The notes under the pieces: generated by a model | The model's database searches: none | The model's input: only the letters and a program-made list of their open reading frames with translations | What the model was told of the DNA's origin: nothing | Source: Polytrichum commune | Taxonomy: Eukaryota; Streptophyta; Polytrichopsida; Polytrichales; Polytrichaceae | Assembly (NCBI GenBank): GCA_950295325.1 | Contig: OX485804.1 | Location: 24,428,001 to 24,492,000 of the forward strand | Length of the DNA: 64,000 bases | Direction of reading: 5' to 3' | Translations under genes and position numbers: made by a program | Shown here: in pieces, positions 5,946 through 48,257 of the stretch | Position numbering within the stretch: position 1 is the stretch's first letter | How the letters are laid out: each line of letters starts with the position of its first letter

Positions 5946-8900
5946 GAGCACTGGGCAGAGGGGATGCACTCCACGAAGAGGCCGTAGCTGAAGGACGTTT
6001 GCATATGGAGAACGAGGAAGACGGCGACATCGAAGATGAATTGGATGGTTTGTATACGGAAGCCACGACTCCAGTGTACCCGGGTTCAAAAATGAGTGTT
6101 GTGTCCGCCACGATCATCATAATGAACATGTGCTCGGTGTTCCGTGTGAGCAATACATTTACCGATGAGTTGTTCCGATTTTTGTCTGGAGACTTGTTAC
6201 CAATGTCCAACAAGTTGCCCAAAACTCATTATGCGGCTCGGAAGAGCATCCGTCGACTTGGATTGACCTACAACAATATCCATGCATGCCCCAGTGGTTG
6301 TATTCTATATGACGAAGAATATGCAAATCATGATTTATGTCCCAAGTGCACGGCGCGACGATGGCTGGATGGCAGCAACAACATTCCCGCAAGAGTAATC
6401 CGTCACTTTCCCCTAATTTCTAGGTTGAAACGGATGTGGCGCTCGTCTGAGATAGCGCGTCTATTGACAGGTCACACCAAACACGTCAGCAGTGATGACA
6501 TCATGCGTTATGTGGTTGACAGCCCTGCATGGAAGCACATCAACAATGACGTCGCGTTTGGCAACTTTGGGCGTGACGATAGGAACATGAGACTGGCTCT
6601 CGCTTTGGACGGAGTGAATCCTTTTAAAACTAAACAACACCAACTGGTCGACGTGGCCGGTATTGATTTTGATTTACAATTTCGAGCCATGGTTGGTGAC
6701 CAAAAAGTTTTTTATCTCGTTGTGTATATTGATTTCCGGGAAGAAGTCGCTGTCCTCTTCAAACATTGATGTGTTTATACGACCGCTTTTGAAGGAGCTA
6801 CAAGAGCTTTGGCATGGTGTTGAGGCTTTAGATTTCTCCCAACCACAAGGGAGTCGCACTTTCACTTTGCGTGCCATACTTATGTGAACCATTTCCGATT
6901 TTCCCGCTTTCGACCTCAATTCTGGTCTTACTTGTAAGGGCTACAAGGGGTGCCCTTGTTGTGGACCAAACACCGATGCGAGGATGGCAAAAACCGGAGA
7001 CATGCTTCCAAATCGGAGCATTAGGGGCACCAAAATTGTTTACGGCGGCATTCGTCGTTATTTACCCCGTCACCACCCGTATCGCCGGAATAGGAGATTC
7101 AATGGGGAGGAAGAGGAACGTCCTAGGCCAAAACCGATGTCGGGGGATGATATCATTCGATACGCAGTTTGGTGCGATTCATACCTACAGATGGGCGGGA
7201 GAGAGAACGGACCCAACGATCCTGTGCATGTCACAGGCGTCAAAAGACTTAGTGTGTTGTTCGAGCTGGAATACTGGCAGGTGATTCTCGTATAACAATT
7301 AATGTTTGCACATCCTGTCCACAGATGTTGAAGTGGACATCGCGACGTCCGTCTCAGTCACGTAGTTTGTAATGATGTCCACCAAGACATCTGACCTAAC
7401 GCTTCAGGCCATGATGATTACCAGCTTTGCTCATACGGATAGACGAGGCATGCATGTGTCCATGAAAGTGCTGGCAATGTGTCTGAAATTGCCCATGTGT
7501 CTTGTGCAGCACCTGCTAGAGCGTCACATCCTCGATGTTATGCATTGTGAGAAGAATTTGTGCGAGAACTTGTTGAAGACATTGTTTGGAATGAATGATA
7601 GTCCTGGAAGCAGGGTCGACGCGGAGGACCTGGGAATACGCGAAGAGATATGGTTGCAACCCCCACGGCGGCCACAGGATGGGTACTATATGCCGCACGC
7701 TCCCTATGTTTTTAGGCCACATGAACGCGCGGAGTTTGTTGGAATCGTCTCCAATATTCGCACCCCCACAAACTACGTGGGTAGCATTCACAAGCGCCTA
7801 GCGGATGGGAAATTGCAGTACATGAAAACGCACGACTACCATGTTCTCATGCAACAGGCAAGTCAAGAAGGACACCCTCGGGGATGTCAATGTTGTAATA
7901 CAATGTATCAATGTGTCATAGGAGTATAGGCACACACCGCATGATGTCTACTGAGACCTCATTCCAAACATGGTTGACGCGTCAACATCCTGGGGGACGT
8001 TATCCTCAAACTGTTCTCGCACTCCATGTTCTTCATGACGCTCCTAGATGTTCTGTCTGATGTCCAGGGAGGCGCGACACAATCGTTCTCTGACTTTCTA
8101 AATACATGTCTTTCAGATTCTTCCAGTGGCTATACGCAACCTATTGGATGAAAGTGTGCGCGTAGCTATTATCAAACTGAGTAGAGTGTTTCAGAGACTA
8201 TGCGCCAAGGAGGTGAAGAGAGGCGACAAGGAGGGCACAATGTTGGATGTGGTGATGGCGACATGCATCATGGAGAAGGAGTTCCCTCCCACATTTATGA
8301 ATGTCATGACGCATCTTCCCGTCCATTTGGTGGAGCAGTTGTACACGTGCGGTCCAGTGCATTGTCGATGGATGTATCCCATAGAACGGTACATGAAAAT
8401 GTTGAAAGATTACGTTCGAACATTTGCACATCCGGAGGGTAGCATAGCGGAAGGTTATCAAATAGACGACACGCTTGGTTTTTGCACGGAGTACATGCAT
8501 CAGTACAGAGGAACTACACATCGTGTATGGGACGTTGAAGAGGATGCAACCATGAACGATGAGATTCTCCGTTGCAACTCACAACAAAAGCGAAAGATGT
8601 CCGACGAATTCCGCAACTATGTGCACGCTTTTGTTTTGGACAATGCGTCGTTATTGGAGCGTTGCAGAGAGTTAGTGGAACCCATACTTACTTTACTTCA
8701 AGCCTCGATGATATATACTGTCACCCAATGCAAAATACTTGTGCCATGTCAACTGTGACATGCAGCAGTGCATGAGGATGTGTTGGACATGATGTCCCAA
8801 ATGACATTCTTTCTGAGATATACGCGTCACATGTGATATTGCAGATGATGGCCATCACACTTTTGCATCACCTTTATATACATGCAAGGGCCATTTCTAA

Positions 8901-9778
8901 CCACAATTTAATGGCACACAACCTTGTGCAGGGAGTTTATGGCAGCTAGAGTTTCGCGTTGGAAAGAGAGGGAGGCCTTTCGGAAAATGTGTCGCCGCCG
9001 GCATCCAACTTTGGCAGTGCGGTATCCGTTGGAACTACACGATCTTCCTCCCTTTGCAATATGGTTGACGTCGCGTCTGTCACGTCAGCGTTCCTCCGGC
9101 GAAGTTGTGGACGTCGATGTTGCGCAATACGCGCAACCTCCCGAGCGATATGCAATCTCACACCGGAAAATGTATACGTTTGGCATGCACTTCCGAGTAC
9201 GAGGTGTTGAGGGTGGCCTCGTCACGTGCGATTCATGTGTGGTGGCCTCATTTACACGATAAATACCATGGGGCTTGAGAAATGGGCGACCCATAGAGAC
9301 AACCGAGGAGTATGTGGGCTACATCGAAGAGATCTTGGAGCTAGACTACCGAAATCATTGCACCACTGTGCTAGTGTGCGATTGGGTTCGCCCAAGTGCA
9401 AATCCTCGACACCCTAACATCACACGGGATCAATATGGTTTCACCGTTGCGAACTTCAACCGCATGGATGGCAAAGTGCACTCAAACTCTTTTGCATTTC
9501 CATTGCATTGTCAACAAGTTTTTTTCTCCAATGACCCGACGAGGCCAGGATGGAAGGTTGTATGTCGCACGGACGTGAGGGGTAGACGTGGGCAACTACA
9601 AACCAACCAGACCTTACCGCGCATAATCGATGTCGGCCACGATGCTGACTTTGTGGGTTTACAACCACAAATGCAAGATGTAGAGCCCACTAGAGAGCCC
9701 GCAACGGACGGCGGCATGCACATCCCAGCCTCGTTGGATGTTCGTGGGGAAGAAGAAAACGAAGGAACACAGTATTAG

Positions 9779-28794: not shown

Positions 28795-28798
28795 ATGG

Positions 28799-28828
28799 AA
28801 CACTATATTCGTTAATTGGAAACTTTTG
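28799..28828 (+). repeat. E1 left terminal inverted repeat
   Basis: AACACTATATTCGTTAATTG followed by GAAACTTTT. Compared with the E2 right terminus it matches at 27 of the first 29 positions. Confidence 0.82.
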
Positions 28829-29201
28829 AAAGTCTCAAAATAAAATATGCCCATAGTTTGGGATGCCAATATTGTGGGCATACGGAATATTGGAAACATC
28901 AAGAACATGACGATTTAAAAATTTGTACGTAAAGGATATTCTTATTACTAAAAATAGATAATTTCAATTAAAATGGAAAGTGAGCTCCATGTGGAAAATA
29001 ACAATCCACTCCAAAAAAAACAAATGGTTTATGTCATTATAGAGTTTGGGGTGCGCATCCCATAAGTAAGGCTCTTATGAATTTGGATGGCACATCCTAA
29101 ACGTATACCACAATGGAGTGTGACAAGTCCACTAAGTCTATTAAAAACCAAATCTACTAATCGCCCATGTTTTTCGCCATTAACTCCCACCTATGTTATG
29201 T
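28829..29201. other. E1 left subterminal non-coding DNA
   Basis: Nothing coding lies between the left terminus and the stop of the DUF7869-type gene. No palindromic sites of the E1 type are seen here. Confidence 0.6.
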
Positions 29202-32200
29202 TTACACATCTCCATCTTCCGCTTCATATCCATTCTCGGCGTCATTTTTTGCCGCTGCAATACGTGCCAAGTTGTCTTTGGCAAAATCTATATGTTTTTG
29301 GGGGATGGTCATTGTTTCTGTTTTGGACCCTTTGCGCGGCTTCCAAGCACAAAGTATAGTATCCGTATTTATCCAAACCGGTGTGTACGCTGAGTCCACA
29401 GTCCACTTAAAATTCTTTTTGGTGTCCCAACCTAAATAAGTGCGTAGCACATTATGGTCTTTAGTGCTTGGACGACAATATTCCACCTCAATTTGACGAA
29501 AATTGGGGCTAGTTCGAACAAAATTGGGTGAAGACAATGCTTTCACCAACCAAATTGGCTTGGGATGCTCCTCATCCCCTGCTCGTACAAGGACCAAATA
29601 ACCTTCATGGCAATCAACACCTACACGAAACGACGGTGCCGGTCGATTGCGGGCAGGGCCAACGTAATGCTCGTCCATTGCGAACTCTTCACGAACGTCT
29701 CCATTGCTAAAAAACATGGTGTCGGACTCGACAACCGTTAAACGGCTTTGTGGTCAAAATCCTTGTGTTAAAGTTGTACGGGTGTCGCCACCAAGTGTCA
29801 TTAGGGCCGAGCGAATGCAATCCCAATACGCAATTAAAGGCTCATGAGTATCTTTAACACGTCTAGTGATGTCTTCCTCACACAACTCTTTCCAATATTC
29901 AATGAATCCGGATATGCCTTTGATGATTTCCGGCCCATTCCTCATGAGATCAGGTTTGCAAGGCTTTGGATCCCCATCCGGAAGCAAACATTTGTCATCA
30001 TTGTCTTGATGCCATACGAATATACCATCATCCGGGCCCCAATTAGGAGATGTGCACAAAAGCTTGAATTGCATGGCTGGGAGACCATCATCCCTTATAT
30101 AGAATCGGAATTGTTGTGCTTTGGTATGCCCCACCAAACGGTCCCCTCCCTTCAACATGTATGACTTGATGAAGGCCTTGAAATTTGGTACTTCCTCAAT
30201 CATGTGCGGAATTACTGGCATATGGTCCAAATCCATATACGATTTCATAAGAAGAGGTATGGTTGGAAAATCTTCTTCATGCAACTTCATGCTCCACCGT
30301 CCGAATGATGCATCAATGTCGTCGTGTGTACGTCCCACCATAAAAAACGACACAAACACCTCCTTGAAGATTCCTTTCGCCACGAGCAATGACCAAAAAC
30401 AAAATACATATCGACATTTGTTGTCTTTCGCGCAATTATCAAGTTGAACGTGAAGAGTTGGAGGCAATGGTTTTGCACAAATAGGTTCTCCCGGTGGTTC
30501 TGGCAATGACGACATACAAACCTCCTTCCCCGCAAGCACTGCTTCGTAAAGGGGTGTCGTTCCACAACCATCAAAAAATGCACGTGATTGTTGCGCACCT
30601 CTCCATGAGGAGTGCCCGAAACACCATGGGCACAAGGGGGACCCCGGAGTGACACCCGGGACTTGTGGCGCCGTTGGTGAGAGGGCCCAAGTGATCCTAG
30701 TGTGGGTGAGGGCCCCGGGCGTTGGGAACGCCTCCCACCCACGGAGACTAGGAGGCATGAGGGTAAGGCCATGAGCTATGCGTAGCTCATGGCGTGGTGA
30801 TTCTAGAATGCTCAAGAACACCTCAATCGGAGGTGTGAGCTAGGAGTTATGGCCATTTGAGTGGCGCGCTGTCCCGGGACAGCGCCCTGCTACAGCAGTG
30901 CCTGGGAGTGATTCCCGGGACTGCCAAGGTTCAAACAGGCATAACTTCCTGACCACTTGCCCGAATGGGGCAAGTGAGGAGTCCATCGGCATGTACGTGA
31001 AGCGTAGATGAAGATGGAGTGGTTGGTTGCTGGAATCAGACATCATACAAGGAAGTTATGATGGTCTGAAGCTGCTGGGGGCTTCTAGGCCCAGCGGCTA
31101 AGGGAAAATGTCCACTTGGCCCCAACTCTTGGTAGAGAGACAAGAGGTTGGTTGACGGTGGGGTAGGGGCCCCGCGTAGAGTCCTAGAGGCTTATATGGG
31201 TGAGGTGGTGTGGCCTCACCCACCCGAGGCCGAACGGCACGGCCTCCATTGGCATTGGCCTAATGTGAGGCCATAGTTGCCTAGTATGGTTCGGGTTGTT
31301 GTAGTGTTGCTTCGGCAACGCGATGATCAACATAAGATTGGACTTCCATGGATGGAAGTCCACATCTAAGGATTGGTTACCAATTAAAGGGGTTGGTTAC
31401 CGATTAAAGGGGTGAGTCCCGAAGTAAAGCAAAGTAGGAGGGTTGGTTCCCCTCCTATGAACTATAAGGTCCGGGGTGAGAGGAGCTAACCATTAGCATG
31501 GCGGTATGCGAAGGGTTAGCGACTCGTAACCTTTGCTAGAATTGCAAATTGGCAAGGTTGTTAAGGGGGCTAGCAAGGGTTGCGACAGTGATGAATGTAA
31601 CGGCGGCTTCTCCAGATCGCGCAAGAGTTTTGCAAATGAACCCACTGTGTGGTTAGCATCGCCAGGGTAAAAATCCAACCCATAATGGGCATACTTTACG
31701 TCTCCATGGCCGTGGGCAATCATCCCTGCGAAAAAAAACAAACGATGCTTGAACAACAACAATAACAACGACAACTCCAAACGGAGGTATGAAATTGGAT
31801 ATTTGGCAAACACACCCAATAAAATTTGAGAGAATTTGAATACATATTTGTGATTCAATACAAACCTGTGATAGATACGGGTAACTTGAAAAGACCATCC
31901 GTGGCCTTTATTTTGCGTGCATAACAAGGGCATGCGGTCTTGGCGTGGTCCATTTTATCATGGATGATTGTTAGAACTTCTGTAGGCCTCATTATGGATA
32001 GAGCACGGTTCTTGTAGTAATCTTGACGGTGAGCCTCTTGGTTGTTGACATGTTCAATATATTTTGCTTGGTGTCTAGTGTGGGATTCGGTACCTATGGG
32101 GTGGGCGTCTCGAAGACCTTTGTATTTTTCACACGTCGTACACCTAGCGAATTTGTCCCCTGGTCTCTTCAAAATGTATTCGGCAAACTGTTGGTTTTTA

Positions 32201-33342
32201 ATCACACTCAACTTGGACAAAGAAATGGGCCCACATCCCGCTATGCGATCCACTTCATTGATGTCCGTTAATATGTTCTTCCATTTTGTACCCGTGGGCA
32301 ACACCATTTGTACAACTTTCTCCCCTGACGACAATGTCCTCGTCTTGTGGGGCATTGCATCGGCCAATGGGACTATGATGGTGGAGAGTGTCGCGGAGGT
32401 TTAGAGTGTAGCCTCCCTAGGTTTCTTTGTACCCGAATTGCCATGAAAACGAGAGCGGCGACCCAACAATGAATATTTTTGAAACCTATAAAAGTCAGAC
32501 TTTGACACGGCGTAGATGGTATACCACGCAGTACAACACACTTCCACATTATCAAGTGTGACCACCTTATGCCCATGGATGTCAATGTGGACATTTCTGT
32601 GGACCTCGAGTTTCTTTGCCGATCTCATACGGAAATCCGCAAGCCACATCTCTTGACGTAGGGACTTAATTTTCTCCCGCGGGAAAAATTGGCAACATTT
32701 CCTCTCGCAACAGTCCTTGGCGGACACAAAACGGATAGATTCGTCTCCCAATATGCGATCCCGTCGACGTTCCTTATCTCCACGAGGCACACGGTTAGAA
32801 TCATATCTGCGTAGGCCTTTGCGAGGACGTATTTTGGCCAACAAAGCTAATTGCGTTTGCTTATGGCGGCGGTCATGATCCAACAAGCTTACTCCGTCAT
32901 GGAGAACCCGACAAAGAGGCCATCGACGCAAGGAAAATCTCCATGTCACCGGGACGTCAAACGGAAGCAAAGAATTCAAGATGCACACACCCACATCATT
33001 GGGACCAAGGGGGTTGGCATCCATACAATCACAGGGATCGGAATTTCTACATATGCCATCTGCCACCGGGACACCAACATCGTTGAAAAGAACAACATCA
33101 AGGCCCACCCATTGCTCCCTACCGAAACCGGCACATAACGGAATGTCATCATTGTCATCCCCGAAACGTATAGATTGTTCGTGCGTTTCAAATGATTCGT
33201 GGGAGGATGAATCCACAAACCCACCCATGGCATTTGCCATGCCATGACTACCCGCCGATGGCGAAGATAGTTCACAGTCACCATCGGAAGAGGAAGCTTT
33301 TGTGGACAACTCCAATGAACTATATCCAATGTGCATCGCCAT
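29202..33342 (-). pseudogene. DUF7869-type transposase-like gene, interrupted by a solo LTR and two stops
   Basis: The minus-strand frame is open from ATG at 33342 (after a TTTAG acceptor; an upstream exon is possible) with SRRRDR-like basic and Cys-rich segments (SAKDCCERKCCQFFP, ARCTTCEKYKGL). An intron (31865-31726) rejoins SITG to MIAHGHGDVKYAHYGLDFYP. The DUF7869-type core is LHVQLDNCAKDNKCRYVFCF, VGRTHDDIDASFGRW and IPLLMKSYMDLDHMP; these Asp-rich motifs suggest an RNase-H-like nuclease but that is inference. Breaks are TAA at 32403-32401, a solo LTR 30589-31587 whose removal restores the frame, and TGA at 29756-29754 followed by in-frame homologous sequence to 29202. I infer it is the transposase of E1 because it sits between the termini and is the only transposase-like gene there. 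Confidence 0.75.
30589..31587. mobile_element. Solo LTR, 999 bp, TSD GTGAT
   Basis: Starts TGTTGCGCAC, ends GGTTGCGACA, with flanking GTGAT on both sides (30584-30588, 31588-31592). Excision leaves an uninterrupted DUF7869-type frame (EKPPLHSS joined to RAFFDGCGTTPL). No internal retroelement sequence remains. Confidence 0.88.
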
Positions 33343-33486
33343 CCAACCTAAACAAACCACCAATAAATGACCAACACAACAACAACCGCAATACATACAA
33401 AAGCGGATACGAGATATGCCTACATATATGGCTGAAAAATCACAACCAACACTCGCCACACCGTTGCGGGACCTCACATATGAAGA

Positions 33487-34790
33487 CGAACGTGCGTTCG
33501 ACAACAGCCCCATGACATGCAAATCCTACACGGGACTCAGACGTCCCTGCACAACGGAACCCCATTCCAATATATATTACCCGTGAAGGGCTTTGGGTGG
33601 AGTCGCCAATAAAACATTGGAAGGATTGTCCACCACCAAGGGACAACACAAACACATATATTCACGAACGCGAGGACGAAAACATCAACCCAATATACAA
33701 TAAAATCTAAATGGGACATATTATAAGAGCACCTAAAATATACTTGCCACTTTATTCACATGCAGTAAGCATCATATTTGAGGGGCGTATATTTGATGGG
33801 CGAGTGTTTACGAACGATCGTTCGTTAGCTACAGCTGAAATGGAGGGCTTATGTACACGAACGATCGTTCGTAAGTTCCAGCCGAAACATAGGGGCGGAT
33901 GCATACGACCGATCATATGTATGTTACAGCCGCGACAGTGTTAGGCAAAAATGATTGGACACGTCCAAATAGAGATATCTATAGCCACGTTACAGGGATA
34001 CATGAAATCCAATATCCAGTGGAAAATGACAATCGACATCTATCACTAAAATCATGATTGAACAGATACGAACGAGCGTTCGTATCTAACATTAACACGG
34101 TGTAGTCCTCTACACATGCTTGTGTCAACAAGTCTGTTGGTGGATGCGTGGACGGTGGATAGGTGGTATTTACGAACGCGCGTTCGTAAAATTGGAAAAC
34201 ATCATTATCCGTGGACATAAATGGTAGTGCGAAATACGAACGAGCGTTCGTATCTATTCTAAACATGGTGTAGTCCTCCACACACGCTTACGTTAACAGG
34301 TCTGTTGGTGGATGTGTGGACGGTGGACAGGTGGTATTTACGAACGTGCGTTCGTAAAATTGGAAAACATAATTCTCCGTGGACATAAATGGTAGTGCGA
34401 AATACAAACGAGCGTTCGTATTTAACTTCCATATTGTGAACGTGGCCAATGCACGGAAGTGTATAAATTAAGGAATATTTATGGATTCTTGAAAAATAAT
34501 CCCAGGTGATATTTACGAACGCACATTCGTAAATATCCCATCATCAGATGTTCCGTTGGAGAAAACGGTTACACGGGAACTCCTGCGCGTCTGGGTCTTG
34601 AAGGTAGATATACGAACGTACGTTCGTATATAATCGACACAATTTTCGTGCCTAGTTCTGTCTATAAGTAACTCAATGTCGAGTACGGTTGTAAACAACT
34701 TACGAACGCACGTTCGTAAACAACTCACATCATATTTATGTACCTCTTGTACATGTGCTACCAACTCACGTTTACGAACGTGCGTTTGTA
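33487..34790. promoter_or_regulatory. Palindrome cluster 1 (about 13 copies of TTACGAACGNNCGTTCGTAA)
   Basis: Perfect or near-perfect dyads are at about 33487, 33811, 33858, 34068, 34169, 34235, 34338, 34401, 34511, 34610, 34700 and 34770, with a decayed copy near 33905. The arms are conserved while the central two bases vary (AT, AG, CG, TG, TA, CA). Two copies of a larger 165-bp block (34,100-34,240 and 34,270-34,410) carry two dyads each, so some copies spread by local duplication. The cluster lies upstream of both divergent genes, the position expected for regulatory or transposase-binding sites. Confidence 0.88.
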
Positions 34791-34799
34791 AACGTCCGG

Positions 34800-37139
34800 T
34801 ATTTGCGGCGGTATATAAGGGTATGTGCAGTCTGTAGTGGACCTGGGGGGTGTAGGGTTGGCGCACAAGAAAATGGTTTGAGCGCGTTCCAGTCAGGTCT
34901 GTGGAGCGCACACTTGGATGTGCCGCAGAAAAGAGCTCTTCTGTGGGGGGAAGAGCTTTAAGTACCTTCCCCCCAATGGTTCAAAATCCCTTGGATGCTA
35001 TTTAAAAAGTGGATTCCCGCCGCCTACTTTGACCTAACAATATGCCATTCCATTCATGCGCAATATATAAATAGCATTATGTATGGAACATGTCTTGCGT
35101 GCACGCAACATATTGTAAATGTATAAATCCGTCGCACACCTTAGTTGTTACCAAGGTCGCACGAAAATATGTCTATATATCTATATGTCTATATTTATAA
35201 GTCTATATATATGTATAATTTATATTTTACTATTTTATATATGGGTTATTATAATATATATATATAGGTTGATGGGTTAACATTGAGTATTAAATTATTT
35301 GCGACTAAGGTGTGAAGTCCAAGTGAATTGATGAAGGTTTAAGTGATATATATATTCACACACACAATGAGGTAAGAGTGGCTAAGAACATATTGTGGAA
35401 TCCCCTAAAATTGTAGATATCATATGATTCACATAAAAAAAAATGCTTGTAATATGGTCACCAAGTGCATAAATACCAATAAAAAATCGCTTAATCCATA
35501 GTGGCTTGTGCTAGGTAGATTGAGGACATTTGGAAGTGGAGGCTCACCAAACATCGGCCCATATTAATATGACTCATTGTTGCAATTCATCATTGGTGAA
35601 AATTAAAGTTTAATGCACTAGTATTCGATCGTTAGTTCAAGTTGACACCTAATTAAATGACTTGACGTCCTATTGGAAATTCACTTTAGGTCCACCATGG
35701 TGTGGAAATGGATAACTAATTTGGAATGGTGCATACAATAGTATGCACTTACAATTATATATTTGTATTATTTGCAACAAGAAGTATGTGCATGACCATA
35801 GCTTAAACTATTGATTTAAGTTGAAGTCTTAAACCATTCATGTTATAATAAGACTAAGTGTGTATTTTGTGATCAAATTGCACTCAAAACTATTAAGGTG
35901 AAAGGGCTAGCATTTCAAAATTCATTCTTCACCCCCTAAACCAATGTTTTATATCAAAATGACAATTACTGGCATGAGTCTAGATTATTATAGTTGCTAT
36001 GACCCAAATAAGGCAAGTTCCAATCGAACCAACATTCGTAGACCATTTTGACATGATGCGCATAGACCACAACATGGCCATATATAAGAAAGGTTGGTAA
36101 GGTAAAAAAATGTAGGGTTTAGGGTTTGGGGTTAGGGTATAGAGTTTGTGAAAGTTGTCTATGTGGTTTGCGGGCTTAGGGTTTAGATCGTTACTTCAAT
36201 GCATTATATACACAAACAATATCGACTCCTAAATAATCCATATCGCACTAACTTAATTTATGGGAAGCTCATACTATCAATTATTGATACTACTAGCAAA
36301 ACATGCGACCACATGGCTAAAATACACTACACTAAATATCATATTTAGTGTTTGATTGTATAATATAGTGTTGTTACATTATCATGGTCAACACTAAATT
36401 TCAATTCTTTGATACTACTAGCAAAACATGCGACCACATGGCTAAAATACACTACACTAAATATGATATTTAGTGTTTGATTGTATAATATAGTCACTGT
36501 GTTGTTACACTATCATGGTCAACACTAAATTTCAATTCTTTGATAATTAGTGTTGGACATATTAAATGGGCCACCACATTTCCTACTACCATGTCCTTTA
36601 TGCTTTTATCATTGTTAATTTTTTTTTCATATTAATTTCCTTACACAAAATTTGTGCATGCGACATCCACATATTACCATTATAGTTGAAATTAAGTGTT
36701 TGAGTTCACAATGAATAGTAGTTACTTTCATAGGGTTACTGATATTTAGTGTACTATGCGTTTGTATTTAGAGTATCTAACACTAAATATCATATTAAGG
36801 GTGGTTCAAGCTAACACCTCATTAAATTAATGACATCGTATTGAAAATTGAATTTTCATCCACCTCTTGTGGAGAATCAGATAGCCCCTCTCCACAATTC
36901 AAATTGAGTCATTTATATATGTAATATTTATTTGAGGAACCATTGAAGAACTTTAAAGATGTCTCGTTCATGAAAACGACATTTGCATCTTGGGGGTGGA
37001 TTCTTCATCGAAAACCTACTAAATGACATGAATTGTTAAATACAAATTATCTGAACATACTTTTCTAAAATATGTTTACAAGGAATCCATATGTCGAGGT
37101 ACTAAGGGGATACGGAAAGTTAAATTTATGTCCCTAAAC
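34800..37139. other. E1 central non-coding DNA free of palindromes
   Basis: No ORF of note. It includes an AT-rich 35,160-35,280 segment, a 125-bp tandem duplication (36,286-36,541) and a short telomere-like run of TTTAGGG variants at 36,113-36,145. A TATATAAGG word is at 34,813. The abrupt lack of palindromes suggests an inserted block, but I found no defined ends. Confidence 0.5.
36286..36541. repeat. Tandem duplication (125 and 131 bp) containing CACTAAATAT dyads
   Basis: Both units begin GATACTACTAGCAAAACATG. Each contains CACTAAATATNATATTTAGTG, nearly a perfect dyad. The second unit has a 6-bp insertion (CACTGT-like). Confidence 0.87.
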
Positions 37140-37859
37140 TAAGCTCCTCCCATCTCCTATTTCATTTTTCCTGAACCCTCATCCCTCCATGTCCCCATGG
37201 TATCCCCTCATCCCCATCCCCATTCCCTCCATCCCCTCCATCCCCATCCCCATCCCCATCCCCCTCCCCCATCCCAGCCCTAGCCAGTGGCCACTAGCCA
37301 CGTGGCTGCCGCTTGGAAACCCTAGCGGCGCCGGCTACCTCCCCGCGCCCCTCTCTCTCCTCCTCATTTGTCATTTGGAGCAGAGGAGGAGAGGAGCTCT
37401 TAGGTGCGGCGAAGCCCTTGCCAATTTTAGAGCCTCATTGTGAATGTTGTTTTGTTGTGTTGTCAGAACCTTGAGAATAGGAAAGCTTGAGAGTAGGAAA
37501 GGTTGAGAGGTTGAGAGTTATAGAAAGGTTGAGAGGTTTAGAGTTTTAGAAAGCTTGAGAGCTTGAGTTTTAGAAAGATTGAGAGGTGGAGAGTTTTAGA
37601 AAGGTTGAGAGCTTGAGAGTTTTGGAAAGCTTGAGAGCTTGAGAGTTTCAGAAAGCTTGAGTTTTCTGAAGCTTGTGAGTTGTGTACATCAGGGTTTGTG
37701 TAGGATTTGCATATAAGTTGTGAAGGCTTGAGAGTGTGACAAAGTGAAATTGCAATTGAAAGCGAATTCAACGCTTTTGAAAGACAATTTGGTGTGCATT
37801 TGTGAGGGTTTCTGGATTTCTCAGTAGGAGGCAGCAGGTTTTCTGTGCAACAATTCAAT
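37140..37859 (+). promoter_or_regulatory. Putative promoter and 5-prime UTR exon of the E1 chimeric gene
   Basis: A CT/CCCCATCC-rich tract (37,140-37,275) is followed by about 200 bp of purine-rich TTGAGAG/GAAAG repeats and then a good splice donor, AAT|gtgagtac at about 37,858. The chimera's ATG at 38800 directly follows a CTCTGCAG acceptor, so at least one untranslated exon must lie upstream. This is the best candidate. No TATA box is evident. Confidence 0.45.
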
Positions 37860-38194
37860 GTGAGTACAGGTTTCCTTTACAAATCACTCCTTCACAATCT
37901 GAAATTGTTGTTTGATGAATTCCTTGTGATTTGTTTTCTGCATTATGAGGTATGGCATGTTTTGTATGAAATAACACTTTCCTCTTCATTCTGAATTATC
38001 AATCACTGACTCGCAATTTTGTTCTGATTCCATTTTTCACTTGTGTTTCATCAATCTGATCACGAGTTGCAGGTTCATGAACAATGCACGATCGCAACAT
38101 TCATACCAACATATATACGCATATATACATATACGTATCCGTATATGTACGGATATATGTATATAAATAAATATACCATTTCCTAATCCCAGAT

Positions 38195-38770
38195 GACCAC
38201 ATTTACGAACGTTCGTTCGTAAATGTGGCGTGAATATATGCCTTACCCCACAAACATATACGAACGTGCGTTCGTAAATACGCACCTCACCCTCCATTTT
38301 TACGAACGCACGTTCGTATATTCGTCTATACCCTGTACATCAGACAAATCCTCAAATCAAATTACACATACAAAAATACGAATGAACGTTCGTAATCACA
38401 AACTATAACAATATACCAAACCCTTCATGGTAATTGTTTGCTTTCCCTAGTAGCATAATTTACGAACGCACGTTCGTGAATAAGAACTAAAGTATTAATT
38501 CACCTATTTAGAAGATGCTCATGGAAATTAGAACAATCCTCGTGGAATTTAGATAACCCTGGACAACGCGTAGACTTGTTTAGAAACAATACGAACGCAC
38601 GTTCGTAAACTTGAGCCAAATACACCTTAGCAACCACATTCTTTACAAACGATCGTTCGTAAATGAAATCAGCGAAGACATAATTAAAATTCCTCACGGG
38701 TACCCATAGCCAGCGTTCATTGATTAGTATATATGATTTGCTTGTCAATTACGAACGCTCGTTCGTAAAC
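38195..38770. promoter_or_regulatory. Palindrome cluster 2 (eight copies) in the 5-prime intron of the chimera
   Basis: Dyads occur at about 38203, 38259, 38301, 38374, 38460, 38589, 38645 and 38750, all before the acceptor at 38792-38799. Centres vary (TT, TG, CA, AA, CA, CA, AT, CT). They sit in the sequence likely to be spliced from the 5-prime UTR. Confidence 0.87.
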
Positions 38771-40095
38771 ACAATACTAAATGTTTATGTGCTCTGCAGA
38801 TGGCTAGACCGAGCAGGAGCGCCATTGAGATGTTCGCAGTGCAGATAGATCAGCTACCAGAGTCAGTGTCCGACCCCAACGGAAACGATAATTATGTCCC
38901 CAAGGAGGACTTCATTGGGGAATGGACGGCACTGCCAGAGAAGACATCAGACGGTCTTTTCTGTCTTCGCTTCACCTACGAGCTGGAAACGACGCCGGAC
39001 CAGCCAGAGCAATGGGTGCAGATGAAGACTTGGGAAGTAGAATCGATTGAGGCACAAGGAGATTATGTGATTTTAGACATGAAAAATAAGAAGGATCACA
39101 TTAACCTCCTGTTAGAGTACAGGAGACATAGTTTCTCCTACACATACGCAGAAAATAACGTAGTGGTTGATGCCAAACACTTCCTCAAGGACCTCTTCAC
39201 GAAGTACGCCCTGAGCTCGTACTGGACAGCAAGGAAGTTGGCCGCGCTTTCCTTGAATATCTCCAAGTACAATAGCGCGGTCGCCGAAGCCAACAAGAAA
39301 AAGAAGAGCCCACGAAAACCATCCGCATCCGGGGCAGGAGGATCGAGAAGTGCACCCAGGCCGGTGCCTTCCGCGAGCAGGGTGACGGAGGGTCCCAGCC
39401 GACATTCCACACCATCGAAGAGGTCCCGGGACGAAATGGAGAGGTCTGGGGTAACAGAGGGCGCTGAGGTGAGCTCTCCTCCCCTGATGCCAACCCCTTT
39501 AAAGAAGGGTGAGAATCCAGATGCAGTAAAGGCAACAAAGATCCTACGAGACTTCAATAATTACTCGAAGGATTGCTGGCCCATGGGGCGCCACTTCACG
39601 TTCAACGTGGACTGCTTCAAGTGCGAAAAGTCCCCCAACAAGTGGGTGGTAAGACCTCGCGAGAGCGGTGGGGTGAAGTGGCAGATCAACAACCTCATGA
39701 ACAACGTCAAGTGGGATAGGCAGACCGTCTGCGTCATGCCCAAGGGGCTGACATCCCGACCGACAGAGATGGATTGGCCGCGAATCCAGAATGGAGAATT
39801 CTGGATTATAGATGGTCAGCATAGCTTGGAGGCGTCGCAACAAATCCTCAAGGACGACAACTTCCAGCACGAGCTGAAGGCTGACCTGCGGTACTGGAAG
39901 GCGTTCTTGGTCTGGTCGGACGATTGGGACAAGCTGCGCAAGATTTCAACCTTCCTGAACTCGGGGAACAAAATCAAGGCGTTCGAGGCTTTGTGGGCGG
40001 CTAACATAGTGGCTGCGAGAGACGTCTGGGTGGCACACGGATGCCCACCAAAGGAGAGGGAGAACGCCAAGAACCAGTCTCTTCAATGGAAGGTG

Positions 40096-40177
40096 AGTTT
40101 ACGAACGTTCGTTCGTAAAGTGTTGGATTCACGAAAACATCAATTACTGTCTCAATTTACGAACGTGCGTTCGTATT
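40096..40177. promoter_or_regulatory. Two E1 palindromes inside a 116-bp intron
   Basis: Intron 40093-40208 has one dyad starting four bases inside the donor (gtgagtTTACGAACG) and another about 30 bp before the acceptor. Together they fill over a third of the intron and could pair with each other in the transcript. Confidence 0.88.
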
Positions 40178-41549
40178 ATGTGCAACACTGACATCTTGTT
40201 TTGTGCAGGCATTTTGCGACGCGATGGTAGACAAGTTCTCTTCCATCGATATGAAGTCCACCACCACCAAGCCTGTGCTCGAGCTGAAGGGTGAGCTCAG
40301 ACTGATCTGCTGCAACAGGGACACATGGGACTTGTGGACGCAGTTTTTTGATGCACACAGCTCGGGCGATTTGGTCAATCCCGACACGGAGGAGAAGTAC
40401 AGCACGGAAAAAACCGGTGAAGCGCCCCCACTACTGAGGGAGTTCTTTAGACACCTCCAGGGATTGACGGAGTCAGAGCTGAAGAGGTGTGCGATTCATG
40501 TTCTTGGGAACACCGTGGGAAGAAACCTTCCCTATCCCAAGATCTTTTCGAAGAGGCCAAAGCACAAGCCCGGGACGTACTCTATCAAGGAGTGGTGTGA
40601 CCACCGAAAGCTGAAGACTGCTGCCATGAGAGAGTTGAGCATACTCGTACCAGAGTACAAAATCTTTGAAGTCGACGGCGACATCAACTGGCCGTAATGG
40701 CAATTGTTAAAGGTCGACTACAACATCAACGGAGCCTCCATGCGCAGTCTGGTCAAGGAGCACGCCTCGATTTTGAAGTTGAAGGGGAACAAAAGGACTA
40801 AGAAAACCGACACGGATCCCCATGAGGTAATGCTATACATAAAATTTTTGGAGAGGAAGAGGAACGCCACATTCGAAGGAGTGGCAAGGTTTTGCGTGAT
40901 GACCTCCGGCATGGAGAGGGTCACATTTTCCAAGTGGGACGGCACCATCAGCAGGGCCGAGGTGAGGGAGGATCGACGGGGTTGCCCATTTGCCCTGATC
41001 GATTTCAGGTGGATCCCGGGTGTGTCAAGGCTGGGGGGGAAGGACATTCCCTTCTACAACCCCTTCATGGCCAAGTTCATGGAGTTCAAATCGCCGGCCA
41101 TGAGGGAGCCACACGTTTGGCTGTGGAAGTCGAACAAGAGAAGCTGTCGGTCGTCACAGAGCTGTACGAGCAGAAGATCAAATTCGAGTACAACATCTTC
41201 CACAGCACGTACGTGCCAGCGAAGACGGAGGGGATCGTGGCCATCAACGAGGCCAGGGGCAACAAGCAGGTGGGAGCGGTCAGCTTGATTTTCTTGACGT
41301 ACAATGAGCTTAAGGATGGGCGACCGCCTATCAAGGCAAACAACACGTTCAAGAAAAATCTACAGCATCCCGCATCCCCCTCCCAAGGATCTGCTGCAAG
41401 AGACCCTCTACACCGTCTTCCCCGCCATGGAACTCAGGATGGAGTTCTACGTCTCTGTATTGCAGAATCTGGTTATAAGTGGAGAGACGGTATACAACGT
41501 ATGTGGAGGCTCCAAATTCATGTATGCAGCCATGGTAAGTTGTCCAGAC

Positions 41550-41732
41550 TCCATTTACGAACGCTCGTTTGTAAAGTTAACCAACTTCTCAATGTATTGT
41601 TTCACAGTCGCTGCACGTGACGCATTCATGTTTACGAACGCTCGTTTGTAAACATAACCCCCTTCGTAATGTAATGCTTGAACATCGTTGCTCGCTACGC
41701 TTTGATGTTTACGAACGTGCGTTCGTATTTTC
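41550..41732. promoter_or_regulatory. Three E1 palindromes inside a 223-bp intron
   Basis: Intron 41535-41757 has dyads at about 41554, 41631 and 41707. Two of them have CGTTTG in place of CGTTCG in the right arm. Confidence 0.87.
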
Positions 41733-42742
41733 TGACCTTATTGCTCTCTTCTCACAGATGATGGGTCTCGTAGTCAACACATTCGTTGACGCTATCGGCG
41801 AAGAAGACTTCAAGATCCACCGTGCGAAGGCGTCGACGATGGACCTCAAGGACATCTTTGTCCCCAGGATGGACTTCAGTATGCCCGCCGACGAGGGCAT
41901 ACCATTCCACGATTCAGAGGACGACGAGCCCGCCCCCTCCGCCAACGTGGACGCCATTCTGCAGTCCTTCGACGTACCCCCACTTCGGATCTTGCCGCCA
42001 ACGACGGATCTTCCCGACCCTCAAGGGACGCCGGGTGGTTATACCGGGTCGTCCGCGGGGACAACCCTGGACGTCCTCCCCGCGAGAACATCTCTTGCGG
42101 AGCCTTTCGGAACGCCAGGCGGATGCTCGACGTCACAGTCTCCAAGGCCCGCCGTGGTTCCGAAGATGGAAACCCTGGACATCCTCGACCAACGCTCGTG
42201 GCCATCTTTGGACCTCTTCCGCAACACGAGGAGGAGGATGAAGAAGACTCCCTATGTGGAGTTGCCGCTGGGAGCAATTATCGAGGTCTCGGACGAGGAC
42301 GAGGGGGACATGGACATCATGGCCGAGCTTGGCGTGGACTACGACAAGAACAAGCGGGTGAAGGAGGAGGCACTCACCGTCGCTGAGCTCAACGCCAAGC
42401 TAGAGGTGAAGATGAAGGAGGAGATGGCTGCAGCATAGGAGGAGAGCGCCAAGCATCTGGCCAGGCTGCAAGAGCAGCTGAGGGATTCAGCGGCCAAAAC
42501 CGACGCCATCTTCGAGATGCTCAGAAACATGCAGAGCTTCTCTGCGCCGGTCCAGCAACCTTACCCCTTCCCCCCTGGAGGATACCCCTCACAGCCCCCA
42601 CCTCCAGTCATGTACCAAGGAGGGCGTTCCCACCAAACAGCGCCACACCCAACGCCGGTGGGAAGTCCATTGCCCCCGGAAGTGACGGCGGCCGCCTCAA
42701 CCTCCCACGATGCAATCACGGCGGCGCTAAGGGAGGACGAAG

Positions 42743-43216
42743 ATTTACGAACGCGCGTTCGTGAATCTTCAGGTCCGGCAGTCCTCACCCCTCCCCCTTC
42801 AAGGGTAGGACTGCGCACAGACACCGACACGGCCTCTTTCACCGTCGTCCCAAGGGTTCTAGATAGGCGGGGCGATGACACTGCGCAACACACTGACATG
42901 GTCATTGTGGAGGAAACGCAGGGGAGCCCCAATGACTCGGCAGGTCCGCATGGGATGGTCGTGGAGAGCCCTGACCAGGAACGACATCCATCTGCGCACA
43001 TGGAGGATGTCCGCATGGAGAGACTTGACCTGAGCGGGGACGACGACGACGACGTGGAGCTCATCCAACAAACCCAGTTGTCTCAGGAGGAGCGTCCAGC
43101 GGAGGTCATGGAAGCAGAGGTTGCTGCCCCAATGGATATTACGAACGCGCGTTCGTTAATCAAAGAGGTAACTCATCTCTGAGAATGCCAAATGTTTTAC
43201 GAACGCGCGTTCGTAA
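42743..43216. promoter_or_regulatory. E1 palindromes within coding sequence and at an exon end
   Basis: The dyad at about 42743 is translated as LRTRVRES. The dyad at about 43138 is translated in a different frame as ITNARSLI, just before the donor at 43168. A third copy is at about 43195 inside the intron. Confidence 0.85.
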
Positions 43217-43504
43217 CATCACTAACCCCCGCGTTGTGTTCTTGGCGCTTCAACTCCATCGACATCACGTTGCCCACGCGAGCATTTTTCTACATGATCG
43301 CTTGGGCCGACCAATTTTGTAGGACACTGCATTTTTTCCTTAGGAAATTGTGATAGATTATCACGCGAGACAAATGTACATATTCACCGAATTAATATAT
43401 GAGCAGACGATCTCTGCTCGCATCCCCTCAACTTATTGCATATTATTCTCGCGTCTTGTGTTGTCTGTGTTGTTGCGCGTCCTTGCATTCTTTGCATACA
43501 CACC

Positions 43505-43660
43505 TCACTCACGAACGCTTGTTCGTAAAACTGTGCGACCCCGTCTCGACCTCCTTCGCGAACGAGCGTTCGTATATGTACGCATCCGCGCTCACGAACG
43601 AGCGTTCGTAAATGATGCGCACCGCCCCGCAGCCTTCATTGATGAACGGTCGTTCGCAAT
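43505..43660. promoter_or_regulatory. Four E1 palindromes in the 626-bp intron before the FCP1-like exon
   Basis: Dyads at about 43510, 43557, 43592 and a decayed one near 43642, within intron 43168-43793. No further good copies occur downstream. A weak relic, ACGGACGCTCGTTCGT, lies in the tail exon at about 44926 and in its E2 counterpart at about 12450. Confidence 0.82.
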
Positions 43661-45207
43661 TGTGCCCTTGTGAACATTTTCCTTGCACCCTCCTCACTTC
43701 CTCCTCTTTTCCCATAATGCATCGTCTTTATTTTCAACGCAACAATTTCTTTATTGGATCATAGAATTAAACTAGTCGCGTTGTTCATCACAGGACCCCC
43801 CAGAGATAGGTCGCAACCCCTCCACCAGTGGACCTCGAACCCGGAACAAACCGTTCCTCGTTTTTGACCTCAACGGGGTGTTGTGTCACACCCAACACAT
43901 CCCAAGGGTCCCCACGCGTCCCTTCCGTCACCCCGACGAAAGGGACTACGACGGCGAGCTCGACACCCTCATTAACCGCAAGGCTGTCCGCGCCCGTCCC
44001 GGCCTGCGGGACTTCCTTCGCAAGGTGGTCGAGTTCGCCCACGTCGTTGTGTGGAGCTCCATGGTCATGGAGAACACGGAGCCCATCGTCCACTTCTTGT
44101 TCCGTGATCTCCCGAGCCCTTGCCTCGTCCTCGGCCAAGAGGACTGCGACGAGCTGCTCGACGAGAAAGGCCGACCGGTGCCCAAGTTTGGCGGTCGAGG
44201 TGGAGGACAACAGTTCCTCAAGGTCCTCCGTTCAAGACTCTGGCAAGGCGTCCCCCGTCTGCAGGGGACGCCCCATGGGTGGTGGCCGACTCCTGAGAAC
44301 ACCCTCCTCATCGACGACAACCCCACCAAGAGCGTCTTGAACCCCCCGGGCAACGCCATCTTCCCGGACACTTGGACCGGCGATAGGCAAGACACATTTT
44401 TGGTCGATAGGCTAGCCCCCTACCTTAGAAGGCTCGTGCTCCACGCCGGTAGCATCCCATTTTTTGTTAGGTCCAACCCCTTCGGCAATGCGGCGCTAAG
44501 TCCCCGCGATAATGTATATAAGAGCATCATGAGGCTCGCCAAACTCAATAAATTGATTTGAAATTCCTCCATGTCTTTGCTTGTTATCATGTGGTTCACA
44601 TATCTAATGCTTGCTCTGTTTTTGGATGTCTGTTTTTGTTTTTTGTTGTTATTGTTGTTGTTCTTGCCCATAGTCTGCCCCCATATGCGATGCCCCTGTA
44701 GTCGATGGCCCTTCCCGTCCCCTCTCGCCCCCGGCATCCCCTTCCCGCGACGTCACGGACTTCCAAATGCCATCCCTCTACCACTTCTCGGCGGTCGACG
44801 CGGCATCGGCCGTGGATTACTCCCGCGACGTGGGCATCGACGACGGCGTCGTCAACAGCCCGCCCCCAGCACTTGTCACCCGCGCGTACGCCCCGTCGCC
44901 CTCCCCCCTCTCCAAGGAGAAACGGACGCTCGTTCGTTTGGGGCACCTCTCGCCCTCTAAGGACGACGCCGTCGCTCGTCGCGGGCCGAGCCGGCGTCTC
45001 CGCATGGAAGGCCCCCGTTGCCACACCTCCCCCGCCGACTCCGTTCCTCCCCCCGCAACGTCCTCCGCTATCGTGGGCCCTCCACGCCTCGACTCCCCCC
45101 CGCCATCCAACAGTGCAATATTTCCATCGGCTCCGGATGCTCCCGTCGACACCCCCCTTGTTCCCACCGTTCCCCGCATGGACGTCCCCAAAGCCAAGGT
45201 GCCCTCC

Positions 45208-47396
45208 TGTAATGACAATTTCTGAATTTTTTTTGAGCAAAACAATGTGTAAGTGAGAAACATGTTGTTTTAAGGCTTCAAAAGTAGAGAGAAGTATGTG
45301 TGAACAGGGCTATGGTCTGGCAGTTTAGAAAAGTAACCGCCAGCAGCTCCTGACCTGCTTCGAAGAAGCTTCAGAAGGATACACAGTCTATTGTCTGGTA
45401 GAAGAAGGCAAGTTTTTTTTGGGTGAATATAGACTTTGATAGTAGTGCAGTGAGATTCAGGCTGGGAGAGCCGACAGGATGATAGAGAATTCTCTGTGCT
45501 AGGTTGATTTGTAGTGATACAGATTAATTCCCTACCAGAAATTGTTTTGATTATACTGTGAGGTGAATTTATCCTATTCCAGGGGGCTTGTACTGGAGCA
45601 GGCTTGGAACTTTTGAGAAACTGTGTTTATTTCTGGATTACCAATGTTATGTGGGGCAATCATAAATATAGTTTACTGTTATGTGTAATTGCAATTCTGT
45701 TTCCAAATTATTGTATTGTGACTATGAGTGTTTATATGTATATGTTTTAGATCATAAGCGTTGCATGAGGCAGAGTCCTTGGTAGGGAGAGTTGAAGTAA
45801 TCCAGCCCGGGTGAAATGCATATATTTGAACTTGATCGTAATATCTCTAATGAAGTTGAACTGGTGATAATTGTTGTGTGATTGGATTGGCTGGTTACTA
45901 CATAACTTGATATTTTCCAGTGAGTGGTTTATATAGATTAAAGGCTATGGACTCAACTGGATTTGTTTCATACTTATCAGATATATGCTGAGGTGGGCTG
46001 AAATATCGAGCAATTATGGTCTGAGTCTATGCATGAAGTCTGTGAGGATTTTACCATAGGTTATTTTCTAATTCTATTATGAAGAGCAATCGTTAATCGG
46101 GTGAAGGTTTTTATTGGCAATTGTCTGGGTGTATCAAGGAGGAAAGAAACTGCTCGGATTTACATCATAGCTAGATGGCTTCATTCTTGGGAGTCCATAG
46201 ACTGGAAATATTGAGGGGTGAATTACCTACTTGGTTGACCTACTCGAGAACCTAGAGGTATCGGAAAGTAGAAATTTGGAGTTACTTTGGTGTGTTGTAG
46301 GTAATCACAGACAATTGACTGCCCTGATACAGTAAATTCTTGTACTGGGGGAATGTTTTCGGATGAGTCATTCTCTCAACCCATTAAGCCTCAGTGAGTA
46401 ATGTGCTAATTTTATATTAATCTAATACGATGCCAATAAAAGGAATGCGCCTCGTATTATTTAGTTCAATCTTTTGAGAGTACAGTTAGGGGACAAAATA
46501 GTGAAATATGTAGTTGCAGATAGTTATAGGATTGAACCAATGACAAAGGCTATTGTCCTTGCTCTGTAAATGGAGAAACTGTTCTCTACTAGCCTTTCAG
46601 AAAGGATGGAACGTGAAAGAAAAGAGGCTATGGTCTGTGGATGATTACATAATCGGACGTAGGAGATTCCTAATCATGATTCGTACGACACAGGTATGTT
46701 TTGATGGCTAATTGTGTCATTAATTGAATTCAGAGATCTTCGTGAAATCATTACTTTATTAATTGAATGTTTTAACTTCATTTTGGGGAAGATAATATAA
46801 TAATGAATTGATTACCTTAACGAGCATGTGGTCTTGGTCTATTGTTTCGAGGAAATACGCTATGGTTATGTTGGCCAAGACCCGGTAAAGCCTATGGTCG
46901 GACAGTATAACCTAAAATGAAATGATTAATTAAGGAGTTTCGACAATCCCGCAGGGATGACTGCACCGCCCATTTCAAGTTCAATTAAAAGGGATTAATT
47001 AAATGCCAGCTTATGGACAATATCAAAGTGCCCTTGACTTTGATAAGCCAAACTAAATGGGTTACCTTTTGCAAATGACTATAGTCGATGGCGAGCCCTA
47101 TGTTTTTGCACCGCACTTGGTCCAATTAAAATGAACTCACTGCCAGACAATTGCCTGGGAAATTAGAGTGAGAAGAGAGACTGTCACTTTTGCATGCACT
47201 GTGATGGAGTGATCTTTTAGATGTTTTTATCCCCTGCCCGTAAACTAATTGACACACCTAAATGGAAATGAAGTGTTATAGCCTTGTGTTTTACCTAACA
47301 AACCTTGTCTAAGACACCTAGATGATATAAGAATCACCTTTTAAGTCTTCCCTGATTGTTTCCCTGGTTTTGTTTGTAACCAAAAAGCTAACTACA
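45208..47396. mobile_element. Solo LTR, 2189 bp, TSD CCTCC
   Basis: Comparison with the uninterrupted E2 copy (12,728-12,745) shows the exact insertion. The element starts TGTAATGACA, ends GCTAACTACA, and CCTCC flanks both sides (45203-45207, 47397-47401). It lies in the intron between the last two exons of the chimera and carries no retrotransposon coding sequence. Confidence 0.92.
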
Positions 47397-47868
47397 CCTC
47401 CTCAACCCTAAACCCCTTTCGCGCTTTTGCTTCCCTTGTCTTTCGTTTGCGTGCCGTTCTCTTTACGAGCGCCCATCCCAAACCGCCCTCATTATTTTCC
47501 CCACTCCATTCCTATTCTTATCTTCCTATGACGTTGTTTCGCAGGTGGCTACCCGCTCGCTTGGTGCCCGGCCCTCCTCCACGTCCTCCTTGGATAGGCA
47601 CGCCCTCAAGGCCGCATCTTCCGAGTCTGATCGTTGTCTGGCCCTCCGGAGAAGCGCAAGACGTTCCCTTTCGCAAACGCCCTCGTATTCTACTTATAAT
47701 ACCACCTCGTACAATTCGGGAGCGCGTCCTGAAACATGCAAGAACAACACATATTCCTGTCCAGGCAACACACAAGGATACAGTCGTGGGCCTGAGATTT
47801 TTAGAGCCATGAAGGCCGCCAAAAACAAGGACTTAGCCGCAAAAAAAAATAGTGGATCGGACTAGTGT

Positions 47869-48253
47869 GACTAGAAGCGTACTAGTGGGACGGACTCCCT
47901 AAATGGGCTTAGGTGTAGAACATATTTAAGTGCTTACTTTCTATGCTATTCCAAGTTACTCAAGACATTGATGGTATTTCCATTATAATTGTATTTCAAT
48001 CCCAATTAATTCATTCAACTTCCATTCATTCTTCGCATCTTCCCTTCCATTCATAACGAGTTGTCATTTCATACGCAACTATTTTCATGTATGCCTCACA
48101 TTTTGTTCACTTCCATGCCTTTATGTATAATAATAGTAGCATACCATTATACATATGGGATTTTTAGTCCTCATTACTGGTCCAATTTTGAAATGTGCAT
48201 CCTTATATAGTCTCATAATCAACAAAAAGTCTCCAAATACCGAATATAGTGTT
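47869..48253 (+). other. E1 right subterminal DNA and terminal repeat
   Basis: Non-coding and closely similar to 13,189-13,587. It ends CCGAATATAGTGTT at 48253, where similarity to E2 stops. The last 30 bp are the right terminal inverted repeat. Confidence 0.82.
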
Positions 48254-48257
48254 ATGG

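Follow-up and report, generated by a model that had tools for sequence, protein, structure and literature searches.

The window analysed here, a stretch of 64,000 nucleotides of the Polytrichum commune genome (assembly GCA_950295325.1, contig OX485804.1, forward-strand positions 24,428,001 to 24,492,000), contains a copy of a DNA transposon, E1, that carries many copies of one dyad, a palindromic site with conserved arms and a free centre. The copy occupies positions 28799-48253 between target duplications of ATGG (28795-28798 and 48254-48257) and is bounded by terminal inverted repeats, AACACTATATTCG at 28799-28811 on the plus strand and its counterpart at 48241-48253 on the minus strand. Comparison of copies gave a length of about 16.1 kb for E1 and showed the same ends in the window copy, A2, B1, B2 and B3. 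Target duplications of 4 bp (acct, agtg, caag, ctat, and atgg in the window) flank all five copies in which both ends were seen; a sixth copy, A1, yielded no right end. The main aligned blocks of B1, B2 and B3 show 99.1-99.6% identity, so the E1 family moved recently. Exon-1 copies of E1 at C2:24367842, C2:24421870 and C2:24466800 (the window copy) encode 100% identical protein on the same strand within 100 kb, which suggests local duplication.

The genes of E1 are divergent. On the left, a gene of several open stretches (29202-33525, minus strand) matches DUF7869 (Pfam PF25273, E 6.5e-34) and is a putative transposase gene. On the right, on the plus strand, lies what we call the DGQHS gene. 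Its exon 1 (38800-40092, 431 amino acids open) encodes a variable N-terminal domain and the ParB/DGQHR-like motif WIIDGQHSLEAS. It is followed by intron 1 (40093-40208), exon 2 with a GGSK motif at its end (40209-41534), intron 2 (41535-41757), an acidic, proline-rich exon (41758-43167) and intron 3 (43168-43793), with the splice sites of all three introns predicted. Exon 2 of the window copy contains an in-frame stop (40695-40697) and frame shifts, and its acidic exon a stop at 42436-42438; exon 2 is open in copies A2 and B1. An open reading frame (ORF) for an NLI-interacting-factor-like phosphatase of the SCP/FCP1 type (43794-44561, plus strand; Pfam PF03031, E 2e-16) comes next and is possibly the last exon of the DGQHS gene. 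An insertion of about 1.0 kb (about 30585-31589), which other copies lack, splits the DUF7869 gene of the window. At the loci L016 and L017, sequence matching about 770 of its bases at 95-97% likewise interrupts another E1 copy, and the insertion is probably a separate mobile sequence. A further insertion of 2.2 kb near the right end (45209-47396) is absent from A2 and B1.

The E1 dyad, TTACGAACGNNCGTTCGTAA, was matched 31 times in the window at up to three mismatches, between 33808 and 43659, against an expectation of 0.01 (100 shuffles, none reaching 31). Allowing four mismatches gave 32 sites, the additional one at 33484-33503 with four mismatches, all within the element and none elsewhere in the window; allowing five gave 36 sites, 35 of them within the element. 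With region boundaries predicted from ORFs and splice signals, non-coding sequence contains 29 of the 31 dyads. Eleven lie on the DUF7869 side of the intergenic region (33808-34791), eight upstream of the DGQHS gene (38203-38768), and two, three and five in introns 1, 2 and 3, the first of these 6 bases past the 5' splice site of intron 1. The other two are in frame in the acidic exon (within EDLRTRVRESS and DITNARSL), and the DUF7869 stretch, exons 1 and 2 and the phosphatase exon contain none of the 31. Among 199 sites from ten E1 sequences, counted in both orientations and selected for likeness by the threshold of four mismatches, arm positions 3-9 show a single base in 95-99.5% of cases, position 2 in 91%, and position 1 is T in 87% and otherwise A. 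The centre is mixed (C 184, T 91, A 87 and G 36 of 398). The AT-rich part of the intergenic region also holds an 86-base direct repeat (99% identity, 36284-36545) with a 47-base repeat (98%) nearby.

In the 408 Mb of genome searched, the E1 dyad has 3,737 perfect copies, and its reversed pattern, used as a control, has none. Among the first 100 of these matches listed, the sites form seven clusters, each in or beside E1-related sequence. Three are tied to E1 by exon matches (C1:2239792, C1:2464806 and C1:2534839) and four by blast (L015, L016 with L017, L018, and L019), the weakest being L019 with about 75% identity over 250 bases beside seven dyads. Between 21 and 39 dyads per copy were counted in seven copies of E1 and of a related lineage, E2. 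A first-pass annotation, made from the letters of the window alone, had described about 30 copies of one dyad, confined to this element, conserved in the arms and free at the centre, and concentrated between the divergent genes and in the introns. The counts bear this out, with 19 intergenic and 10 intronic dyads among the 31, and the genome-wide count that it called for agrees. Neither of the observations that it had named as contrary to its reading, an equal density in unrelated regions or sites unconserved between E1 copies, was seen.

Related elements carry dyads of their own. Candidates from the genome were scored for DUF7869 (150 of 1,491) and for exon 1 (97 of 1,086), and dyads were discovered de novo by counting exact palindromes with 8-base arms at spacings of 0-8. 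This gave 37 copies of TTGGGTCG-2-CGACCCAA in an E2-type DUF7869 element (L022+L023) and 6 copies of CACGGGTG-2-CACCCGTG in an E3-type element (L020+L021). Genome-wide, the E2 dyad TTTGGGTCGNNCGACCCAAA (arm TTTGGGTCG-NN) has 9,731 perfect copies, the E3 dyad CCACGGGTGNNCACCCGTGG (arm CCACGGGTG-NN) 819, and a fourth, the E4 dyad TTACGGACGNNCGTCCGTAA (arm TTACGGACG-NN) found at L044 and L045, 1,310, with none for any of the control patterns. Each of the three lineages carries its own version of the DGQHS gene, whose exon 1 is identical to that of E1 at 34-37% (E2), 40-44% (E4) and 19-21% (E3). The motif itself is conserved in all four lineages as DGQHS, or as NGQHT in E3. In a 9.5-kb E3 stretch (L041) there are 15 E3 dyads, and the genes are ordered as in E1, with NGQHT, then GGNK, an acidic exon and a phosphatase. 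The E4 locus (L045+L051) encodes VDGQHSV and has its own exon 2. In the E2-type element, positions 9141-10390 of L022+L023 form a dyad array with a 78-base period, whose minus strand lies partly within a 461-codon open frame.

The class of dyad follows the clade of the protein. Seventeen loci were picked, for different codon spellings, from 100 listed of 498 genome matches to the DGQHS codon pattern; for two of them, L033 and L036, nearby dyads had already been seen in dyad listings before the choice. All nine DGQHSL loci have E1 sites, with no E2 or E3 sites and no E4 sites at up to one mismatch, and all eight DGQHSV loci have E2 sites only, so that none of the 17 carries the dyad of another clade. 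Five of the 17 had no repeated exact dyad and were scored by approximate matching; two of these five, the E1 relics L027 and L032, retain only one and two degenerate E1 sites. A second set of nine loci was selected on ORF length in the DUF7869 match, and the 2.5 kb upstream of each was examined. The E3 dyad was found at L042, L043 and L047, the E4 dyad at L044 and L045, the E2 dyad at L048 and a single degenerate E3 site at L046, while L049 and L050 showed no dyad in that stretch. These last two loci have the second and third best DUF7869 scores (open frames of 975 and 870 amino acids) and may represent another element class or host genes.

All 17 loci picked for the DGQHS gene had at least one dyad (two of them only degenerate ones), whereas L049 and L050, two of the nine DUF7869 loci, had none in the 2.5 kb examined; this favours the DGQHS protein over the DUF7869 protein as the reader of the dyads. 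The same two loci also count against the idea that the dyads are accessory transposase-binding sites that join the element's ends, in the manner of the subterminal motifs of En/Spm-type elements. The dyads are element-specific, and the DUF7869 protein, as putative transposase, differs between lineages too, as this idea would predict. In B1, however, 3.9 kb separate the left end from its nearest dyad and 2.4 kb the right end; in the window copy, with its insertions, the distances are 5.0 and 4.6 kb. We regard such a function as very unlikely.

A further line of evidence comes from the positions at which dyads are kept while their letters change. Of 30 sequences given to an intron-1 test, the end of exon 1 was found in 27 (17 E1, several of them near-identical copies, 8 E2, 1 E4 and 1 E3) and not in L027, L034 and L004. 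In all 27, a dyad of the element's own class starts 6-46 bases into the intron with 0-2 mismatches, including the 15 of the 17 codon-chosen loci in which the exon end was found. Apart from the dyads, the introns show no evident relationship in sequence between lineages. The in-frame dyads of the acidic exon in E1, E2 and E3 encode different peptides (RTRVRE, FGSSDPN and PHGCSPVG), and it therefore seems to be the DNA rather than the peptide that is kept. Between the E1 subfamilies A2 and B1, 13 of 16 intergenic A2 dyads lie opposite a B1 dyad, where non-dyad columns are 66% identical (2,674/4,056) and the near flanks of single dyads 37-72%. A symmetric site with a free centre that stays in place as its sequence changes in step with one protein of the element points to a dimeric protein with a co-evolving site.

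These observations speak against another suggestion of the first-pass annotation, that the dyad is a miniature mobile palindrome spreading inside the elements. Tandem duplications that contain dyads do occur and change local copy number, as such spread might. Yet the flanks of the 31 dyads are 26% alike against 25% at random positions, with 2 of 465 pairs above 60% alike against 0 of 465. The perfect sites among the 100 matches listed all cluster in or beside E1-related sequence, and four different dyads occupy one homologous place in intron 1. We therefore give this suggestion almost no chance of being correct.

The dyads also persist where the element's genes do not all do so. A derivative, L015 (C1:637500-647499), keeps 42 E1 dyads, spaced at short, recurring distances, along with the left terminal repeat. 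Its DUF7869 gene is reduced to a 49-residue remnant, and no DGQHS exon was present in the 10 kb fetched. Among the matches listed, there is no perfect dyad beyond this derivative between C1:646079 and C1:2235597, and no DGQHS codon match between C1:622493 and C1:2119054. This bears on the possibility that a host protein, for example a silencing factor or an insulator protein, recognizes the dyads. No observation favours it directly; some host zinc-finger proteins in other organisms track transposon families. Sites that recruit silencing would be expected to be lost, yet the dyads are kept and amplified even in the DUF7869-depleted L015, and a change of dyad goes with a change in the element's own protein lineage. 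Host recognition appears very improbable, slightly more so than a role in joining the ends.

According to our analysis, the dyads are likely the lineage-specific sites of an element-encoded protein, most likely the product of the DGQHS gene, that keeps its own element transcribed. This product would act as a symmetric dimer on two arms of 9-10 bp around the free 2-bp centre, and sites in promoters, introns and one acidic exon would let it coat the element. To keep it transcribed, the protein would either remove or block the silencing marks set by the host, in the manner of VANC on VANDAL elements, or act as a transcriptional activator. The adjacent phosphatase ORF, putatively joined to the DGQHS gene, is a candidate effector that could act on polymerase II. 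Because each lineage has its own dyad, the protein would act on its relatives and spare the host and the sister lineages. The first-pass proposal of a site for the element's own protein thus gains strong support from the partner-specific dyads of four related lineages, with binding itself predicted from sequence.

Coating combined with opposition to silencing would fit the number (21-39) and the spread of the sites, and activation of transcription alone is a close rival. Plain transcriptional autoregulation, in which the dyads are enhancer or operator sites of an element-encoded transcription factor with no anti-silencing role, is possible but in our judgement not likely. It accords with the clustering of dyads upstream of both divergent genes and in introns, and dimeric regulators typically bind symmetric sites whose centre is free. 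Against it, some sites lie as far as 4.9 kb past the start of the DGQHS gene, within late introns and a coding exon, and 21-39 sites per copy exceed the need of a promoter. Autoregulation and anti-silencing are not mutually exclusive.

Several points weigh against the DGQHS product as the dyad-reading, anti-silencing protein. Binding, the identity of the protein that binds and the anti-silencing or activating outcome are inferred, and the DUF7869 protein, which also differs between lineages, could be the reader. Domain and profile searches identified no DNA-binding domain in the element proteins, and AlphaFold2 run on the window exon 1 alone as a single sequence gave no usable fold (mean pLDDT 35.4). 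Between E1 and E2, the N-terminal domains share only 22% identity, which bears on where specificity would be located. Because loci of one clade share ancestry, the counts of 17 of 17 and 27 of 27 do not represent independent events; the independence of the evidence comes from there being four dyads. The E4 locus has 15 sites that match the E4 dyad with at most one mismatch. Two of them (L051 4646 and 4847) are hybrids that join an E1 arm to an E4 arm and differ from each dyad by a single mismatch; one further site is of E1 type. The E1 and E4 dyads differ by one base per arm, and the hybrids are possibly a transitional state, traces of a change in specificity, or a sign of weak discrimination between the two dyads. 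In the comparison of A2 and B1, three of the 16 A2 dyads have no B1 counterpart, identity is 52% (75/145) in columns where just one of the copies has a dyad, and the alignment may be drawn together by the dyads themselves, which does not apply to the intron result. Lastly, the 10 kb of L015 do not include the right end, and genes may lie further right.

The first-pass annotation had further proposed that the dyad is parS-like. ParB-parS systems and the DGQHR/DndB/GmrS proteins of the ParB/Srx fold share with E1 palindromic multi-copy sites and a DGQH motif, as far as the accessible text describes them (PMC4619093). The final R of DGQHR is replaced by S or T in all seven aligned element sequences, in which DGQH or NGQH is conserved. 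Of the QR pair and FxxxN named there as features of DGQHR/ParB-fold proteins (PMC4619093), the seven sequences have an invariant R (R49 of the alignment) without a preceding Q, and no FxxxN was seen by eye at the expected place. Searches of Pfam, PHROGs and NCBIfam gave nothing above threshold for exons 1 and 2; among seven members the sub-threshold matches were TIGR03187 (E 0.11, 2/7), GmrSD_N (0.057, 1/7) and the phage ParB-like phrog_1033 (0.046, 2/7). PDB profile searches with three domain alignments had best values of 0.078 (Cas1), 0.0015 (summed over three repeats of a cytochrome construct) and 0.31 (topoisomerase), none of them convincing. There was no ParA-like match among the 10 window ORFs scanned. 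A reading of exon 2 as methyltransferase-like, with GGSK resembling motif I and IDFR in place of DPPY, was likewise given up for want of support in the profile searches.

Comparison with viral sequences did not extend the resemblance. By tblastn, 86 and 54 pattern stretches from viral contigs contained no relative, and phages gave one chance-level match (E 7). A viral set was built from 97 stretches with codons for W-[..]-IDGQHR, of which 80 loci were given, yielding 78 proteins, 71 of sufficient length and 54 after removal of similar ones. Against this set, hhalign matched 19 columns around the motif that had been used for selection; the match was lost when the motif was masked, and after the motif it was no better than shuffles. 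Because the match is confined to the selecting motif, we do not claim homology to DGQHR/ParB-fold proteins, and what stands of the parS-like proposal is the resemblance of DGQHS/NGQHT to their motif. A bolder scenario, which we consider unlikely, would have a ParB-like protein of a eukaryotic transposon superfamily load at parS-like palindromes, spread as a clamp along the element, bring its own phosphatase domain to RNA polymerase II or chromatin, and shield the element from silencing. Repeated switching of both dyad and protein would then have produced at least four protein-DNA pairs that coexist, insulated from one another, in a single genome, with the E4 hybrids as traces.

Among the remaining observations, the ratio of observed to expected CpG in B1 after removal of the dyads is 0.59-1.13 by region, with 0.59 in the dyad-rich intergenic region and 0.17 and 0.35 in the flanks, from which we draw no argument. 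Elsewhere in the window, pieces of a CACTA-type element lie at 5999-9775 on the plus strand (Transposase_21, E 1.4e-9; DUF4218, E 1.2e-32; DUF4216 just below the cut-off), and an Rfam scan of the window returned no matches. The start of C1 consists of TTTAGGG repeats, a telomere of the plant type.

No description of this dyad-protein system was found in the accessible portion of the open-licence PMC literature, and nothing on DUF7869 was found in the open-licence PMC literature. With four dyads and four proteins in one genome, the evolution of DNA-binding specificity becomes testable, for example in the change of the arm from ACGAACG to ACGGACG. Long specific dyads and their readers could also serve as tools to steer chromatin marks, and possible functions may now be sought for DUF7869 and the linked phosphatase.

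Known systems offer two further close comparisons. The TnpA protein of En/Spm is encoded by the element and binds subterminal motifs within a few hundred bases of the ends. It resembles the E1 system in combining an element-encoded protein with many short sites in the element, and differs in that the E1 dyads are internal: in B1 and the window copy, the distance from an end to the nearest dyad is 2.4-5.0 kb. The second comparison is with the VANDAL elements of Arabidopsis, in which VANC21 opposes the silencing of its own element (PMC5735166). Two reports describe family-specific short motifs with many non-coding copies, and motif-bearing repeats amplified in tandem, all as in E1 (PMC5735166; PMC10398659). 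In the former, VANC21 motifs lie in non-coding regions, are gained and lost in tandem and are switched between related elements (PMC5735166). As in the E1 lineages, related elements with related proteins have different motifs, and high motif density occurs only in the element. The VANC motifs are 8-9 bp long and arrayed in one orientation (PMC5735166), in contrast to the 18-20 bp dyads with a free centre of E1-type elements.

The proteins differ as well. VANC has DUF1985/DUF287 and is partnered by a different transposase, whereas the scans of E1 gave DUF7869 and the NLI phosphatase. Pfam gave no DUF1985 or DUF287 match, either for the 10 ORFs of the window or for the sequences in the exon alignments. 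No transposase of the Mutator type (Mutator-like elements, MULEs) was present among the ORFs scanned, which gave DUF7869 only, and the target duplications are of 4 bp; MULEs make duplications of 9-11 bp. Because neither a VANC domain nor a Mutator-type transposase was found, we do not file the E1 system as a member of VANDAL/VANC. Anti-silencing has been shown for VANC and is posited for E1, which would be an independent instance of VANC-like behaviour. If binding holds, sequence-specific self-recognition of transposons has evolved at least twice, in VANDAL and in E1-type elements, with unrelated proteins, and would represent a general strategy.

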